NCBI GenBank assembly: GCA_018060185.1 | Contig: JAGOWQ010000018.1 | Span: forward strand, 1 to 35,414 | Origin: Leptotrichiaceae bacterium | Lineage (GTDB): Bacteria; Fusobacteriota; Fusobacteriia; Fusobacteriales; Leptotrichiaceae | Reading direction: 5' to 3' | DNA: 35,414 nt | Part shown: positions 21,762 to 30,201 of the stretch, piece after piece | Layout of the letters: each line of letters starts with the position of its first letter | Numbering within the stretch: position 1 is the first letter of the stretch | The notes under the pieces: model-generated | Seen by the model: the letters and a program-made list of their open reading frames with translations, nothing else | What the model was told of the DNA's origin: nothing | Databases searched by the model: none | Position numbers and translations under genes: made by a program

Positions 21762-22574
21762 GTGTATAAAGCGATAATTAGTGACTTAGACGGTACTTTA
21801 TTAAATGAGAATCATGATGTTGATGAATTCACAATTAATACAGTTAAAAAAGTTTTAGAAAAAGGAATAAAATTTTATATAGCTACAGGAAGAAGCTATT
21901 TTGGGGCGAAAGAGGTAATGGATAAATTAAATTTAGAAATACCTTTAATAACTTCTAACGGAGCTAGAATACTTAACAGTGAAGGAAAAGAAATTTATAT
22001 TAAAAATTTGGAAGAAAAATATTTAAATAAAATTTTTGAAATTGACTATAAATCTATAGGAAAAGATATTATAATTAATGGATATTCAGGAAATGATTGG
22101 TTTGTTGTGGAGGATGTTATAGATTTTTTTATTAATCAGAGACCAGATAGATTACATGTTCCTGCTCAAATAGAAGAAAAAGAATTTAAAAACAAAAAAT
22201 TTACAAAAATATTTTTTTTAGGAGATCACGATAAATTATTAGAACTTGAAAAAATTATAATAGAATCCACAAAAAATAAAGTAATTACGACCTTTGCCTC
22301 AGAAAGGAGTTTGGAAATTTTTTCTAAGGAATGTGATAAATCCATAGCTGCTGAATATTTGTTAAAAAAAGATAATTTAAAATTAGAAGATGCTGTTGCA
22401 TTCGGTGATGGACTTAATGATTACTCTATGTTAAAAAAAGCAGGAAAAGGATATTTGATGGAAAATTCTTTATATAAATTATTTGAAAGGTTACCTAATA
22501 ATGAGATAGTAAAAAGTAATGAAAATAATGGGGTTGCAGATAAAATAACAGAATTGTTTTTAGAAAGGGAATGA
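21762..22574 (+). CDS. Cof-type HAD-IIB phosphatase, copy 1
   Basis: A 270-residue haloacid dehalogenase-family hydrolase. It shows motif I SDLDGTLL (nucleophile D8, acid D10), motif II FYIATGR, a large IIB cap, then K in the ASERSLEIF/KSIAAEYL region and the final GDGLNDYSML. Cof-type enzymes dephosphorylate sugar phosphates, nucleotides or cofactors such as PLP; the substrate cannot be read from sequence. GTG is the start, after AAAGGAGAT. It is related (about half identical by eye) to the gene at 22967, with a receiver-domain gene between them. Its stop overlaps the next start (ATGA). Confidence 0.9.
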   Translation: MYKAIISDLDGTLLNENHDVDEFTINTVKKVLEKGIKFYIATGRSYFGAKEVMDKLNLEIPLITSNGARILNSEGKEIYIKNLEEKYLNKIFEIDYKSIGKDIIINGYSGNDWFVVEDVIDFFINQRPDRLHVPAQIEEKEFKNKKFTKIFFLGDHDKLLELEKIIIESTKNKVITTFASERSLEIFSKECDKSIAAEYLLKKDNLKLEDAVAFGDGLNDYSMLKKAGKGYLMENSLYKLFERLPNNEIVKSNENNGVADKITELFLERE

Positions 22575-22945
22575 AAATTATGAAAAAGAAAGCTTTAGTT
22601 GTAGACAATACATCATATATAAGAGCAGATATAAGAGAATTGCTAGAAGAACAAGGATACGAAGTATATGAAGCAGGAGATGGATTAGAGGCTTTTGAAA
22701 TTTATAAAAAAATAAAACCAGATATTGTTACTATGGATATAAACATGCCAAAAGTACATGGATTAAAAGCAACACAGTTAATAACTGATTTTGATCCTAA
22801 AGCAAGAGTAATGATTTGTAGTACAATGATAACTTTCCAAAATTATATTAAAATGGCTAAAGAAGCAGGAGCTAAAAGCTTTTTATCAAAACCGTTTTCT
22901 GATGAAGAATTTTTTGATGAATTAGCAAAATTGTTTTTGGTGTAG
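22571..22945 (+). CDS. Stand-alone response-regulator receiver domain (CheY-like)
   Basis: The 124-residue protein is a single receiver domain with no output domain. Key residues are present: D12 of the acidic pocket (followed by N13 instead of a second acid), phosphorylation site D56 (TMDINMP), switch S84 (CSTM) and K107 (SKPF). Such proteins act by binding partners when phosphorylated, as in chemotaxis or phosphorelays. No histidine kinase, chemotaxis or flagellar gene is near. It starts inside the stop of the first HAD gene and is followed by a related HAD gene at 22 bases, so the three are one unit. ATG 22580 is an alternative start. Confidence 0.92.
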   Translation: MKIMKKKALVVDNTSYIRADIRELLEEQGYEVYEAGDGLEAFEIYKKIKPDIVTMDINMPKVHGLKATQLITDFDPKARVMICSTMITFQNYIKMAKEAGAKSFLSKPFSDEEFFDELAKLFLV

Positions 22946-22966
22946 ATTAGGAAAGGTGGTTTTAAA

Positions 22967-23779
22967 ATGTATAAAGCTGTTGTTAGTGATCTAGATGGGA
23001 CTTTATTAAACGAAGAGCACAAAGTAACTGATTTTACGGTAGAAATAGTAAATAAAGTGATAGAAAAAGGAATAAAATTTTATATAGCTACTGGTAGGAA
23101 TTATATCCATACTAAGTCAGTTATGGATGATTTGGGAATAAAAATACCTTTAATTACATCAAATGGAGCAAGAATATACAACAAAAATGGGAAAGTCATA
23201 TATGAAAATTTGGTTAAAAAAAAAGAAGTTGAATCTATATTAGAAATAGATTATAAAAAATATGGGGAAAACATACATTTAAACATATTTTCAGGAGATG
23301 ACTGGGTAATAACAAAAGGGACATTAGAAGAAGTTATAAAAAGATATCCTGAATTAGATAAAATTGACGCTATAGAAGTGGAAAAAGAAAAATTAGGTGA
23401 GTTAGATATTTTAAAATTTTTCTTTATAGGAGAGCACGAAGAACTAGTTGAACTTGAACAAGAAATAATAAAGAAAACAAAAAATAATATTACTATAGCT
23501 TTTGTATCAGATAAATGTATGGAAATTTTCAACAAGACAACAAATAAAGCTAATGCAGCTAAGTATTTACTGAACAAAGAAGGTATAGATTTAAAAGATG
23601 CAGTAAGCTTTGGAGATGGTGAAAATGATTTTGAACTTTTAACAGAATTAGGTAAGGGATATGCAATGGAAAATGCAATAGATAGGTTGAATAATCTTTT
23701 GCCTAAGGATTTTGAAAGAGTTGACAAAAATATTAATAATGGAGAAGCAAAAAAGTTATTAGAATTATTTTTGAAATAA
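22967..23779 (+). CDS. Cof-type HAD-IIB phosphatase, copy 2
   Basis: This 270-residue paralogue of the 21762 gene has the same motifs: SDLDGTLL (D8, D10), FYIATGR, LITSNGARIYN, the cap, and GDGENDFELL. The cap regions differ most between the two copies (for example GNDWFVVEDVIDFFINQ against GDDWVITKGTLEEVIKR), which suggests different substrates after duplication. GGTGG precedes the ATG. The transcript ends in a strong bidirectional terminator just after the stop. Confidence 0.9.
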   Translation: MYKAVVSDLDGTLLNEEHKVTDFTVEIVNKVIEKGIKFYIATGRNYIHTKSVMDDLGIKIPLITSNGARIYNKNGKVIYENLVKKKEVESILEIDYKKYGENIHLNIFSGDDWVITKGTLEEVIKRYPELDKIDAIEVEKEKLGELDILKFFFIGEHEELVELEQEIIKKTKNNITIAFVSDKCMEIFNKTTNKANAAKYLLNKEGIDLKDAVSFGDGENDFELLTELGKGYAMENAIDRLNNLLPKDFERVDKNINNGEAKKLLELFLK

Positions 23780-25797: not shown

Positions 25798-25872
<75 letters not shown>

Positions 25873-25900
25873 ATTAAGACTTGATGGTTTTATTAAATAT

Positions 25901-25976
25901 GGTCGCATAGCTCAGTTGGGAGAGCACCTGCCTTACAAGCAGGGGGTCACTGGTTCGAGCCCAGTTGTGACCACCA
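25901..25976 (+). tRNA. tRNA-Val (UAC), copy 2
   Basis: A 76-base cloverleaf with anticodon TAC at 25934-25936 and encoded CCA. Compared with copy 1 the acceptor has GTGACC, turning one G-C pair into G-U, so it should still fold and function. Confidence 0.95.
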
Positions 25977-25981
25977 TTTTT

Positions 25982-26058
25982 GGAGGTGTAGCTCAGTTGG
26001 TTAGAGTGCTTGCCTGTCACGCAAGATGTCGCGAGTTCGAGTCTCGTCACTTCCGCCA
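25982..26058 (+). tRNA. tRNA-Asp (GUC), copy 2
   Basis: Identical over 77 bases to the gene at 4607, with anticodon GTC and encoded CCA. Confidence 0.96.
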
Positions 26059-26085
26059 ATTTAATTTTAACCGTAAGGTTTATTT

Positions 26086-26161
26086 GCCGCTTTAGCTCAT
26101 CTGGTAGAGCAGCTGACTTGTAATCAGCAGGTGGTTGGTTCGAGTCCGACAAGCGGCACCA
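26086..26161 (+). tRNA. tRNA-Thr (UGU)
   Basis: A 76-base cloverleaf with acceptor GCCGCTT/AAGCGGC, anticodon TGT at 26119-26121 and encoded CCA. Confidence 0.96.
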
Positions 26162-26176
26162 TTTTAATAAAGTTGT

Positions 26177-26261
26177 GGTGAGGTTCCCGAGCGGCCAAAG
26201 GGAGCAGACTGTAAATCTGCCGGCTCAGCCTTCGAAGGTTCGAATCCTTCCCTCACCACCA
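26177..26261 (+). tRNA. tRNA-Tyr (GUA)
   Basis: An 85-base class II tRNA with long variable arm, acceptor GGTGAGG/CCTCACC, anticodon GTA at 26211-26213 and encoded CCA. A T-run follows the gene and may aid termination. Confidence 0.96.
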
Positions 26262-26679: not shown

Positions 26680-26696
26680 TATTAAATTTAGATTTG

Positions 26697-26727
26697 AAAC
26701 TAGGTGTATTCCTAGTTTTTATTTTTA
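26697..26727 (+). terminator. Terminator after ebfC
   Basis: An 8-bp stem (AAACTAGG 26697-26704 with CCTAGTTT 26711-26718) is followed by a T-rich run. Confidence 0.85.
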
Positions 26728-26766
26728 ATATTAAATTTGTATAAACAAACAAAAGTGAGGTTTGTT

Positions 26767-27702
26767 ATGGAAAATAATGTTTATTTAAAGGATAAAATAG
26801 AAAAATTATTATTAATATTAAACGATGGATTAGTTGGTAAGGAAAAGATAATTAAACTTGGGATATTGAGCTTAATGGCAGGAGAAAATTTAATTTTAAT
26901 AGGTCCGCCAGGGACAGCAAAAAGTGAAATTTCTAGGAGATTTAACAAAATTTTTGAAAAGGAAAGTTACTTTGAATATCTTCTTACAAAATTTACAACA
27001 CCCGAAGAGATTTTTGGTCCTTTTTCAATAAAGAAATTACAAGAAGATAAATTTGAGAGAAGCACAGAGGGATATATCCCTAGAAGTAAAATAGTATTTT
27101 TAGACGAAATATTTAAGGCTAATTCTTCGATTTTAAATACACTTCTTACTATTATTAATGAAAAGGTTTTTCATAATGGTATTAAAATTGAGAAAATACC
27201 TTTAATTTCTTTAATAGGGGCTTCTAATGAAGTTCCTCTAGATAATGAGGAACTAACAGCTTTATATGACAGGTTTTTAGTAAGAGGAATTGTTGATTAT
27301 ATATCAGATGAAGAAATAGAAATGTTACTTGACATAGAAAATAATGAAATTGAAATTCCAGAAGAATTAAAATTCACACTAGATGAATTAGAAGAAATTA
27401 GAAAAAATTCTAAAGAAATTAAAGTTTCAAATGGTATAAAAAAAACTATAATTGAAATTAGAAGAGAATATAATAAAGTATTTATGGATGATAAAAATGA
27501 AATAATATCAGATAGAAAAATTGTGAAAATAATGAAATTACTTAAAATATCTGCATATATTAATGGTAGAGATAAAGTTGATTTTTCAGATATTTTAGTT
27601 ATGATAAATTGTTTATGGAATGATGTTAAAAATGTTGAAAAAGTAAAAAAAATAGTATTAGACGCAGTTAAAAACAATATAACGAAAGAGGATTTAGTAT
27701 GA
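26767..27702 (+). CDS. ravA: MoxR-family AAA+ ATPase, RavA-like
   Basis: The start is ATG 26767, six bases after GTGAGG, giving 311 residues; an upstream TTG is rejected. The AAA+ core is complete: Walker A GPPGTAKS (46-53), FTTPEEIFGPFSI, Walker B IVFLDE (109-114, E114 catalytic), NEKVFHNG, sensor-1 LIGASNE and the arginine-finger region LYDRFLVRG. MoxR ATPases work with VWA-domain partners as chaperone-like machines, and one such partner, ViaA-like, lies at 28253. Escherichia coli RavA has 498 residues because of a triple-helical and LARA region that binds the lysine decarboxylase; this protein lacks that part. The stop overlaps the next start by four bases. Confidence 0.88.
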   Translation: MENNVYLKDKIEKLLLILNDGLVGKEKIIKLGILSLMAGENLILIGPPGTAKSEISRRFNKIFEKESYFEYLLTKFTTPEEIFGPFSIKKLQEDKFERSTEGYIPRSKIVFLDEIFKANSSILNTLLTIINEKVFHNGIKIEKIPLISLIGASNEVPLDNEELTALYDRFLVRGIVDYISDEEIEMLLDIENNEIEIPEELKFTLDELEEIRKNSKEIKVSNGIKKTIIEIRREYNKVFMDDKNEIISDRKIVKIMKLLKISAYINGRDKVDFSDILVMINCLWNDVKNVEKVKKIVLDAVKNNITKEDLV

Positions 27703-28223
27703 CTGTAGATGAAATAAAAGGAAATAGTATAGAAGAAATTAATTTAGAAATACTTGGAATTTTAAATGAAGAAAAAGAAATAAATCTACTAGAAATGACA
27801 AAAGAATGTGAAAAAATAGAAAGGAAAATGTTTTTAAATTATATTTTTAAAATATTGATAAATATTGAAGATGGTAATCTTGATAGAAATGTTGATGATT
27901 TTTATCGTGATAGAAAGTTAAAAATAATATATATGGATAAACTATTTATTCAATCTAATATTATTATTCTTTTTAATATAAAAGATGACGTTCTATTTTT
28001 TGATAATCCATTTTGGGCATATACTAACAAAACTACAAATAAAAAAATTATAGATATAGAAATTGTTCAGAAAATAATTAGAAAAATGTCTGAAATAGTA
28101 TTAAATGAAAAAATAAAAAGGCAAGAAATAGAAAAATTTCTTAAAAATGGCAGAATAGGTAAAGAAGAAAGAATAACAAGCGAAATATTGTTAAATCAAA
28201 TAAAAGAAAATATACTTCTTTAA
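27699..28223 (+). CDS. Unknown protein between ravA and viaA
   Basis: A 174-residue protein that I do not recognise. It starts inside the ravA stop (ATGA overlap) and ends 29 bases before viaA, so it is almost surely co-expressed with both. It has no signal peptide or clear membrane segment. It appears mostly helical with charged ends (MTVDEIKGNSIEEINLEILG at the start, IRKMSEIVLNEKIKRQEIEK near the end) and a central more hydrophobic, aromatic part (IIYMDKLFIQSNIIILFNIKDDVLFFDNPFWAY). No catalytic motif is seen. By position it could be an adaptor linking the ATPase and its VWA partner, perhaps replacing the missing RavA C-terminal part; this is inference. Confidence 0.8.
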   Translation: MTVDEIKGNSIEEINLEILGILNEEKEINLLEMTKECEKIERKMFLNYIFKILINIEDGNLDRNVDDFYRDRKLKIIYMDKLFIQSNIIILFNIKDDVLFFDNPFWAYTNKTTNKKIIDIEIVQKIIRKMSEIVLNEKIKRQEIEKFLKNGRIGKEERITSEILLNQIKENILL

Positions 28224-28252
28224 AATTTACAACGTAAAATTAGGAGAGAAAG

Positions 28253-29905
28253 ATGAAAATTGAAATTTCTTTAACTTCTCATATATCAAAACCAATAAAA
28301 TATTATGTAAATAAAATTTATAGGAAAAAAATATCACCTAAATTAGGTAGTATAATTTATAGTGATTTTGGTCAAGAAGGGATATATATAGGAAATGATG
28401 AGATAGTAACTCTTGGCAGTTATAATACACTAAATGAAACAAAATATGTAAAAAAAATATCAGTGGATACTTTTTTAAAAAATAATAAATTTTTAAATAG
28501 TGTTTATATATCTTCAAATAGTAATGGGGCTATAGAAAATGAAAAAATAGTTGAAGCAGCAATAGAATATATAGGAGAGAAAAATAATTTTGGATTAGTT
28601 TTTAAAAATACTAATAGTTTTATAAAAAAATGTCTTGATTATTCAAAAGAAAATTTTTTTGATACAGAAAATGACCTAGAAGAAAGTTTTAAATCTGAAC
28701 TAGGTCTTATGAAACAAAAGGCAAAAAATAAAATTGGTGCTATAAAATGGCTTTTATGGGATTTTGAATTAGATGAAAAAAATAAAAAAATGGATATTTT
28801 TGATGATATATATAAAGAAGGCGTTGAAAATAATCTAATATCAGAAGAAAATATTGAAAAATATGAAAATTTAAACATTAGAAAAATTATAAAAGAATAT
28901 GAAGAGATACCTTTAAATAATGAAATAATAATTCATCTAAAAAAAGAATTAAGTGAAATGATAGATTTTTTTAGAGAGATTCAAGATGAAAGACTTCCTA
29001 ACAATATTATGAAGTTAATTATAAAAATAATTAGAGTCTTAGAAGAAATTATATTTAATTATGAAAATAATGAGAATACTCTAAATTCCCTTGGAGGCGG
29101 TTTTTCATATAAAGAATTAAAAGAAACAGGAGAAGATTTTAAAAAAATCGCAAATGAAATGCAGAAAAATAAGAATATTCAAGATATTCTTAAAAGGCTT
29201 GGAAAAGGAAAGTTAGAAAAAAGTAGGGATAATAAGAATAAAGTTGCCAAAATAAATAAAAATGAAATATTTGGTATTGATAGAAGTAGTGATTTATCGA
29301 GACTTCTTCCATCAGAATTGTTAAATTTAGAAGATGAAAGTTTAAAATATTTATTTTATTCTAAGTATTTAGAAAAAAGTCTTTTAACTTACGAAATAAA
29401 AGGAAATAGTATAATTGAAAAAAATGAAAGTGAAGACGGATTTAGTAATAAAGGTACAATTGTGGTTTGTCTTGATACTTCGGGTAGTATGAATGGAAGT
29501 CCGATTATTAAAGCTAAAGCCTTAGTTTTAGCTATAGTAAAAATATTGAAAAAAGAAAATAGAGAACTTCATATAATAATATTTGGGGCAAAAAATCAAT
29601 ATCAAGAAGTTACAATAAATAGTGAAAATCAAATAATAGAAGTAATAAAATTTTTGAGAAAAAGCTATGATGGCGGAACTTACTTTGAAACACCATTAAA
29701 AAGAGCTATGGAGATAATAGATTTTAAAAAGAATTATGAAAAAGCTGATATATTAATGGTTACAGATGGAGCTTGTAAAATAAGTCATGTTTTTAGGAGA
29801 AAGATAACTGAAGAAAAAGAAAGGATGAAATTTAAAATATACACTATTATTTGTGAATCAGATAGAGTAGAAAAAGATTTTTCTGATGGTGTGTTTGTAA
29901 TATAG
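28253..29905 (+). CDS. viaA: ViaA-like VWA protein with N-terminal LRAT-like domain
   Basis: A 550-residue protein. Residues about 400-550 form a von Willebrand A domain with the complete MIDAS start DTSGSM (408-413), a threonine in GGTYF and ILMVTDG, closely patterned on ViaA (IVCLDTSGSM, YDGGTYFETPL). The middle is a helical region. Residues 28-130 do not look like ViaA: they follow the order of an LRAT/HRASLS-type (NlpC/P60 circular permutant) domain, with SPKLGSIIYSDFG, GIYIG and NTNSFIKKC. The catalytic positions are changed: His to E42, second His to T53, and Cys of NCEHF to T120. It would be an inactive, possibly lipid- or peptide-binding module. VWA assignment is firm; the N-terminal domain is a pattern-based inference. 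Confidence 0.8.
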   Translation: MKIEISLTSHISKPIKYYVNKIYRKKISPKLGSIIYSDFGQEGIYIGNDEIVTLGSYNTLNETKYVKKISVDTFLKNNKFLNSVYISSNSNGAIENEKIVEAAIEYIGEKNNFGLVFKNTNSFIKKCLDYSKENFFDTENDLEESFKSELGLMKQKAKNKIGAIKWLLWDFELDEKNKKMDIFDDIYKEGVENNLISEENIEKYENLNIRKIIKEYEEIPLNNEIIIHLKKELSEMIDFFREIQDERLPNNIMKLIIKIIRVLEEIIFNYENNENTLNSLGGGFSYKELKETGEDFKKIANEMQKNKNIQDILKRLGKGKLEKSRDNKNKVAKINKNEIFGIDRSSDLSRLLPSELLNLEDESLKYLFYSKYLEKSLLTYEIKGNSIIEKNESEDGFSNKGTIVVCLDTSGSMNGSPIIKAKALVLAIVKILKKENRELHIIIFGAKNQYQEVTINSENQIIEVIKFLRKSYDGGTYFETPLKRAMEIIDFKKNYEKADILMVTDGACKISHVFRRKITEEKERMKFKIYTIICESDRVEKDFSDGVFVI

Positions 29906-29942: not shown

Positions 29943-29962
29943 GTTTTAAAGTTATACTTTTT
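29943..29962 (+). repeat. 20-bp direct repeat, copy 1
   Basis: GTTTTAAAGTTATACTTTTT is identical to 30182-30201. It holds a short dyad (AAAGT-TAT-ACTTT) followed by T and lies upstream of the small lipoprotein gene. Confidence 0.7.
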
Positions 29963-29997
29963 TAGAATTTAAAATAAAAGATAAATGAGGTAGGATC

Positions 29998-30132
29998 GTG
30001 AATAAAATAAAAATATTATTAATAATGATAGCAATGATTTTTACTATGAATTCATGCTTAGCTGTGGCTGCGGCAGGAGCGGGAGCGGCAGGTGGATATT
30101 ACTGTGGAAAAACATCAAAATGCACAAGATAA
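29998..30132 (+). CDS. Very small lipoprotein with a glycine-zipper-like tail
   Basis: A 44-residue frame starting with GTG, seven bases after GAGG (29987-29990). It reads as a lipoprotein precursor: basic start, hydrophobic core and lipobox MNSC with C20 as lipidation site. The mature part is only 25 residues: a run of Ala and Gly (LAVAAAGAGAAGG) like a glycine zipper, then YYCGKTSKCTR with two cysteines. The codon use (GCG, GGC-rich tail) is more GC-rich than its neighbours. It may insert in the membrane or pair by its glycine face, as the N-terminal part of DolP-like lipoproteins does. LspA and lipoprotein processing are encoded in this genome. Function unknown. It is missed by length cut-offs. 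Confidence 0.65.
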   Translation: MNKIKILLIMIAMIFTMNSCLAVAAAGAGAAGGYYCGKTSKCTR

Positions 30133-30150
30133 AAGCATGTTTAGAAAATA

Positions 30151-30179
30151 TTGACAGTATTAAAAACGAAGAGTATATT
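30151..30179 (+). promoter_or_regulatory. Strong-looking promoter downstream of the small lipoprotein
   Basis: A perfect TTGACA (30151-30156) and TATATT (30174-30179) have a 17-base spacer. The predicted start falls in the second 20-bp repeat. It could drive a small RNA or add to transcription of the phosphohexomutase gene. Confidence 0.55.
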
Positions 30180-30181
30180 AA

Positions 30182-30201
30182 GTTTTAAAGTTATACTTTT
30201 T
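30182..30201 (+). repeat. 20-bp direct repeat, copy 2
   Basis: Identical to 29943-29962; it follows the small lipoprotein gene and overlaps the expected start of the promoter at 30151. The gap from 30202 to 30300 has no other feature that I can support. Confidence 0.7.

Follow-up and report, generated by a model that had tools for sequence, protein, structure and literature searches.

An apparently undescribed RavA-ViaA variant of Leptotrichiaceae with a probably split RavA and a ViaA whose LRAT-like N-terminal domain has lost the catalytic residues

The best described system of this type is the RavA-ViaA pair of Escherichia coli, in which a RavA-type MoxR AAA+ ATPase is followed by a ViaA-type VWA protein within one operon (PMC10585395, PMC9489729). 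The function of RavA-ViaA is unsettled, and work in E. coli ties it to respiratory enzymes, phospholipids and aminoglycoside sensitivity. E. coli RavA carries a triple-helical bundle and the LARA domain in the same chain as its AAA+ module, and the middle domain of ViaA stimulates the ATPase of both RavA and RavA without LARA; the AAA+ domain alone is not stimulated, since the triple-helical bundle, to which the ViaA middle domain binds, is needed (PMC10585395). The N-terminal domain of E. coli ViaA, a helical VAN fold, is likewise required, and its exact function is not known (PMC10585395). Binding of anionic phospholipids was reported for E. coli RavA-ViaA (PMC9489729), whereas no lipid binding by the LARA domain was seen by another group (PMC10585395), so that this point is disputed between laboratories. 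MoxR-vWA pairs are also known as conflict systems in which effectors are fused to the core (PMC7159879).

The window, meaning the whole analysed stretch of 35,414 nucleotides from a Leptotrichiaceae bacterium, harbors three consecutive genes on the + strand, which encode a RavA-like MoxR AAA+ ATPase of 311 amino acids (26767..27702; PF07728, PF17868, NCBIfam RavA and PDB RavA), a middle protein of 174 amino acids (27699..28223) and a ViaA-like VWA protein of 550 amino acids (28253..29905; NCBIfam ViaA and Pfam VWA_2). The first-pass annotation had described a tight single operon of a MoxR ATPase and a ViaA-like VWA protein, with a 174-residue protein of no known family between them, and these open reading frames were all recovered in place, including the four-base ATGA overlap between ravA and the middle gene; viaA starts 29 bases past the middle gene behind a good ribosome-binding site. 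An alternative TTG start at 26737 would add 10 amino acids to RavA relative to the annotated ATG at 26767. A terminator-like hairpin located by pattern scan between ybaB and ravA (26696..26719, + strand; a consensus match only, one such hairpin being found where 0.3 were expected) points to an operon start downstream of it.

The window RavA consists of the AAA+ module only. It matches the NCBIfam RavA model only over residues 1-297 (E 1.6e-77, with 261.7 bits where the full-length cut-off is 681) and the PDB entry of E. coli RavA over E. coli residues 7-295 (E 4e-64). The Walker A motif GPPGTAKS is at residue 46; the matches reach to about residue 297, where the AAA+ lid closes, and the chain stops at this lid. 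The two Pfam families LARA_dom and RavA_C of the RavA C-terminal region (PF20265 and PF12592), both matched by E. coli RavA, gave no match in the window RavA, which bears out the earlier statement that this region is missing; the ordinary fusobacterial RavAs likewise give no match to PF20265 and PF12592. RavA measures 512-532 amino acids in most of the phylum and 310-312 in the four genomes that contain the middle gene. Unlike E. coli RavA, the window RavA has neither the triple-helical bundle nor LARA, and it corresponds to the uncoupled AAA+ construct of E. coli. The Pfam name bpMoxR was not counted in favour of a conflict system, as E. coli RavA gives this match too.

RavA and ViaA co-occur in the same 18 of the 98 genomes of the phylum. 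The middle gene, which is extra relative to the E. coli operon, was observed in four of them, all from the family of the window (the window genome, G081, G085 and G086), and it is present in 4/4 genomes with an AAA+-only RavA and 0/14 with a RavA having its own C-terminal region; the four are related genomes, which do not represent four independent events. Gene order across the phylum was RavA-middle-ViaA in every genome with the middle gene, within a common arrangement of sppA (on the opposite strand), ybaB, ravA, middle gene and viaA, and the same phosphoglucomutase gene lies downstream of the operon in the window and G085. The operon is dispensable, as none of it is found in the near-complete G084, which belongs to the genus of G085 and G086. 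The overlap of ravA with the middle gene in the window is replaced by spacers of 121-149 bases in G081, G085 and G086. The spacer of G081 (L046:6222-6347) contains an open frame of 41 codons, the stop codon of which overlaps with the first codon of the middle gene; this frame is absent from G085 and G086 and possibly arose by chance. Scans of genome contigs returned Fuchsiella alkaliacetigena (L065) and, apart from it, just L064, a contig identical with that of G086; a scan of viral contigs gave no match, and neither the middle protein in plasmids nor the LRAT-ViaA domain in phages was found.

The window ViaA matches the NCBIfam ViaA model over residues 290-526 (E 4.5e-39), and shares with E. 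coli ViaA the middle-to-C-terminal region and the MIDAS motif, here DTSGSM at residues 408-413 (29474..29491, + strand), which is invariant in the alignment. Its first ~172 residues (28253..28768, + strand), which end in a KWLLWD helix, occupy in the alignment the place of the helical region of other ViaAs. The first-pass annotation had called this ViaA longer at the front, and it was right that the N-terminus differs; the difference is a replaced domain rather than an extension, as an LRAT-like domain was found in place of the helical VAN fold of E. coli ViaA. The direct Pfam LRAT match (PF04970) is below the cut-off (E 2.9e-4), but homology of this head to LRAT, a permuted NlpC/P60 domain, is judged firm from sequence comparison because the heads of its relatives match LRAT proteins. 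The ViaA of Fuchsiella alkaliacetigena is 40% identical to the window ViaA over residues 13-550, and its LRAT-like head matches stand-alone plasmid proteins that are annotated as members of the lecithin retinol acyltransferase family (E 3e-17, 37.5% identity). The entire domain is similar to the LRAT family, down to the final W..WD helix seen in the plasmid LRAT proteins, and a profile of the eight heads, run against 399 genomes of the phylum of Fuchsiella, returned only Fuchsiella, two LRAT proteins and one NlpC/P60 protein. A PDB profile search with the alignment of the LRAT-like heads gave no significant match, and the AlphaFold model of the N-terminal domain reached a pLDDT of only 37.3, too low to be used, on a shallow alignment of two or three rows.

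Differential conservation of the catalytic residues was observed among the eight LRAT-type ViaAs. In the alignment, the catalytic histidine and the NC motif are kept in Fuchsiella, G007 and G066, and the His and Cys are also present in the stand-alone LRATs, whereas both are lost in the window, G081, G085, G086 and G032; in the window the histidine position is occupied by Gln41 (28373..28375, + strand) and the cysteine position by Thr120 (28610..28612, + strand). The window head thus differs from the LRAT family (PF04970) in being fused to ViaA and in lacking the catalytic His and Cys, and judged by its residues the domain would not be an active LRAT enzyme. All eight LRAT-type ViaAs form one clade (support 100/99) in a tree built from the shared C-terminal 330 residues of ViaA; the clade claim rests on ViaA, as the RavA AAA+ tree did not resolve the LRAT group as one clade.

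Three types of RavA arm were distinguished, namely GLUG repeats, short helices and a separate gene. The RavA of Fuchsiella (718 amino acids) is undivided and consists of the AAA+ module, GLUG repeats (PF07581, E 4e-20) as its arm and then the end ELIKQIEENIWL, with the tail QIEENIWL; the RavA of G066 (414 amino acids) has the tail CQENIWL and that of G032 (358 amino acids) the tail KNNIWL. In G007, a GLUG-containing frame with the tail NNNIWI directly precedes viaA, and a different contig holds the AAA+ part and stops early in a GLUG-like region (L049, L050); an undivided G007 RavA is inferred from these two contig ends, whose sequences were not joined. A Tn3-type transposase gene lies beside the break in this GLUG-type ravA, which appears interrupted. 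Ordinary fusobacterial RavAs carry NLWI, NLWV or a similar motif about 40-46 residues before the end, and E. coli RavA has CLFI. The region between the AAA+ module and the tail is hence variable among the undivided RavAs, being made of either GLUG repeats or short helices.

The same tail closes the middle proteins. Their ends are QIQENIWL (twice), QINDNIWL and, in the window, QIKENILL (28197..28220, + strand), so that NIWL, which ends RavA in undivided relatives, closes 3/4 middle proteins, and the window protein has NILL through a Trp-to-Leu change. Among 343 distinct ORF ends of the loci compared, 8 fit N[IL][WL][LI], and all of them belong to RavA or middle genes. A RavA-tail profile built without the middle proteins matched 3/4 of them (E 4e-4 to 3.5e-3, with the next unrelated end at 0.33) and missed the window protein, which lacks the tail Trp. 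Purifying selection on the middle gene is strong, with dN/dS = 0.04 for the closest pair, and its product is the most conserved of the three, with identities to the window of 71-73% for the middle protein, 67-69% for RavA and 57-60% for ViaA. Profile searches, which tied the ViaA N-terminus to LRAT-like domains, gave for the middle protein the similarity to RavA tails only: whole-length hhalign comparison with RavA C-termini showed nothing beyond the last ~20 residues, Pfam, NCBIfam and PADLOC assigned it to no family, and a PDB profile search gave no significant match. Its AlphaFold model reached a pLDDT of only 38.7, likewise too low to be used, again on a shallow alignment of two or three rows.

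The first-pass annotation had interpreted the locus as a changed machine with a new adaptor. One machine with changed parts agrees with the conserved order in 4/4 genomes at one syntenic site, while the adaptor part fared less well, since the loss from RavA and the added gene probably reflect one event. An unrelated client-recruiting protein, newly added to a RavA that had lost its C-terminal region and not itself a remnant of RavA, would fit the absence of any family or of similarity beyond the tail, and the 121-149 bases that part the middle gene from ravA in three genomes; we consider it unlikely, as the tail is common to the middle protein and RavA, as the gene is exclusive to genomes with an AAA+-only RavA, and as the region in front of the tail is variable in undivided RavAs as well, where GLUG repeats or short helices take its place. 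No similarity to other arms was detected in the inner ~150 residues, which fits the exchangeability of arms but would also suit a foreign adaptor that had gained the tail. The tail signature and the restriction to genomes where RavA lacks the region make the middle protein better read as a RavA arm; on these sequence grounds, the extra gene most likely encodes the C-terminal part that RavA lacks, now carried on a chain of its own, and the inner ~150 residues may adopt a RavA arm fold. The four-base overlap in different frames and the sum of 311 and 174 amino acids, near the 498 of E. coli RavA, might suggest that a single ravA gene was broken by a sequencing error or by a recent frameshift. 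The chance of this is negligible, because each middle gene holds a 174-amino-acid frame under purifying selection and the same two-gene layout, with the genes 121-149 bases apart, recurs in three other genomes; the three independent assemblies that share the split rule out an artefact.

A different reading of the whole group, in which the LRAT-type RavA-ViaA is an anti-phage or anti-plasmid conflict system with an LRAT effector that decayed or was repurposed in the lineage of the window, draws on the neighbourhoods of the relatives: the Fuchsiella pair lies between restriction/UvrD-helicase (GajB-like) matches and a candidate defence family (PDC-S43), a KAP NTPase (PDC-S20) and a HicAB-like pair are encoded close to the G007 locus, and there is precedent for conflict systems with effectors fused to a MoxR-vWA core (PMC7159879). 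With those ternary systems the window shares the MoxR-vWA core, a GxxxTAKS P-loop and the fusion of extra domains to the vWA protein, but it differs in its housekeeping neighbourhood and has none of their four defining third components, as no Pfam domain of VMAP, iSTAND, the FtsH pair or a vWA-fused beta-propeller was detected in the three window products. We regard this reading as improbable: housekeeping neighbours surround the operon in the window, in the three genomes closest to it and in G066, neither the three window proteins nor the RavA and ViaA of Fuchsiella match a PADLOC model, and the window head has lost its catalytic residues. If right, it would concern the relatives more than the window, given the housekeeping site and the dead head of the latter; Fuchsiella differs in having both an intact His and Cys and a defence-gene neighbourhood. 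The Fuchsiella locus (L065:5503-9286) adjoins an alpha/beta hydrolase gene and is itself a candidate for a defence locus.

The preferred reading, which we hold to be reasonably probable, is a RavA-ViaA machine whose RavA is divided between two subunits and whose ViaA has a different head for binding its target. As to its parts, the split of RavA is likely, and a ViaA with a catalytically dead LRAT head is firm as far as sequence can tell. Since the AAA+ domain of E. coli RavA alone is not stimulated by ViaA, a RavA of the length seen in the window would need its arm from elsewhere, and the simplest machine would be a RavA ring with the middle protein docked as its arm, a ViaA that grips the arm and a non-catalytic head. 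The 174-amino-acid protein would fold as the equivalent of the triple-helical bundle with an inserted recognition domain and would attach to the RavA hexamer without a covalent link, with its tail forming part of the joint; by homology with E. coli ViaA, the grip of the ViaA middle region on this arm would stimulate ATP hydrolysis, while the VWA domain would bind a protein target. The dead LRAT-like head would act as a binding module, and a lipid or a lipid-linked protein at the membrane is a plausible target by analogy, because permuted NlpC/P60 proteins bind lipids or lipid-linked groups (PMC3142127) and phospholipid binding was reported for E. coli RavA-ViaA (PMC9489729). The descent of the head from a superfamily of lipid-acting enzymes is an independent hint that it may face lipids. 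The E. coli partners LdcI and FrdA cannot be general clients, as the near-complete G081 gave no lysine decarboxylase family match and no fumarate reductase flavoprotein family match.

The RavA arm and the ViaA head look interchangeable, as modules for specificity attached to an AAA+/VWA core that stays constant, with LARA just one arm among several. Taken further, specificity or effector cassettes would be exchanged on a modular RavA-ViaA platform, where the Fuchsiella, G007 and G066 lineage has an LRAT-type lipid-modifying enzyme linked to the motor, and in the Leptotrichiaceae branch this enzyme has become a pseudoenzyme sensor and the arm a separate subunit; this extension is put forward tentatively, as a possibility that we would not yet favour. 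If it were true, the Fuchsiella, G007 and G066 type would be a candidate for an ATP-gated acyl-enzyme acting on phospholipids or lipoproteins, perhaps directed against phages. The RavA-ViaA variant of the window is real and conserved, and it is apparently undescribed, as no description of a split RavA or an LRAT-headed ViaA was found in the literature searched. A rebuilt pair in a few anaerobic Leptotrichiaceae suggests how such machines change their targets, and a natural two-piece RavA would allow the ATPase and the coupling arm to be mixed in vitro.

Further features were observed around the operon in the window. Five tandem tRNA genes (Glu, Val, Asp, Thr and Tyr) lie at 25798-26261 on the + strand, and a 92-amino-acid ORF on the minus strand (25874-26152), antisense to them, is probably spurious. 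Two paralogous HAD-like phosphatase genes surround a response-regulator receiver-like gene at 21762-23779, the names being assigned by reading of the sequence, and the same trio is also present in G086. Just past viaA, a 20-base perfect direct repeat (GTTTTAAAGTTATACTTTTT) occurs at 29943 and 30182 (region 29943-30201), and the two copies bracket a short, possibly lipoprotein-like frame at about 30000-30130.
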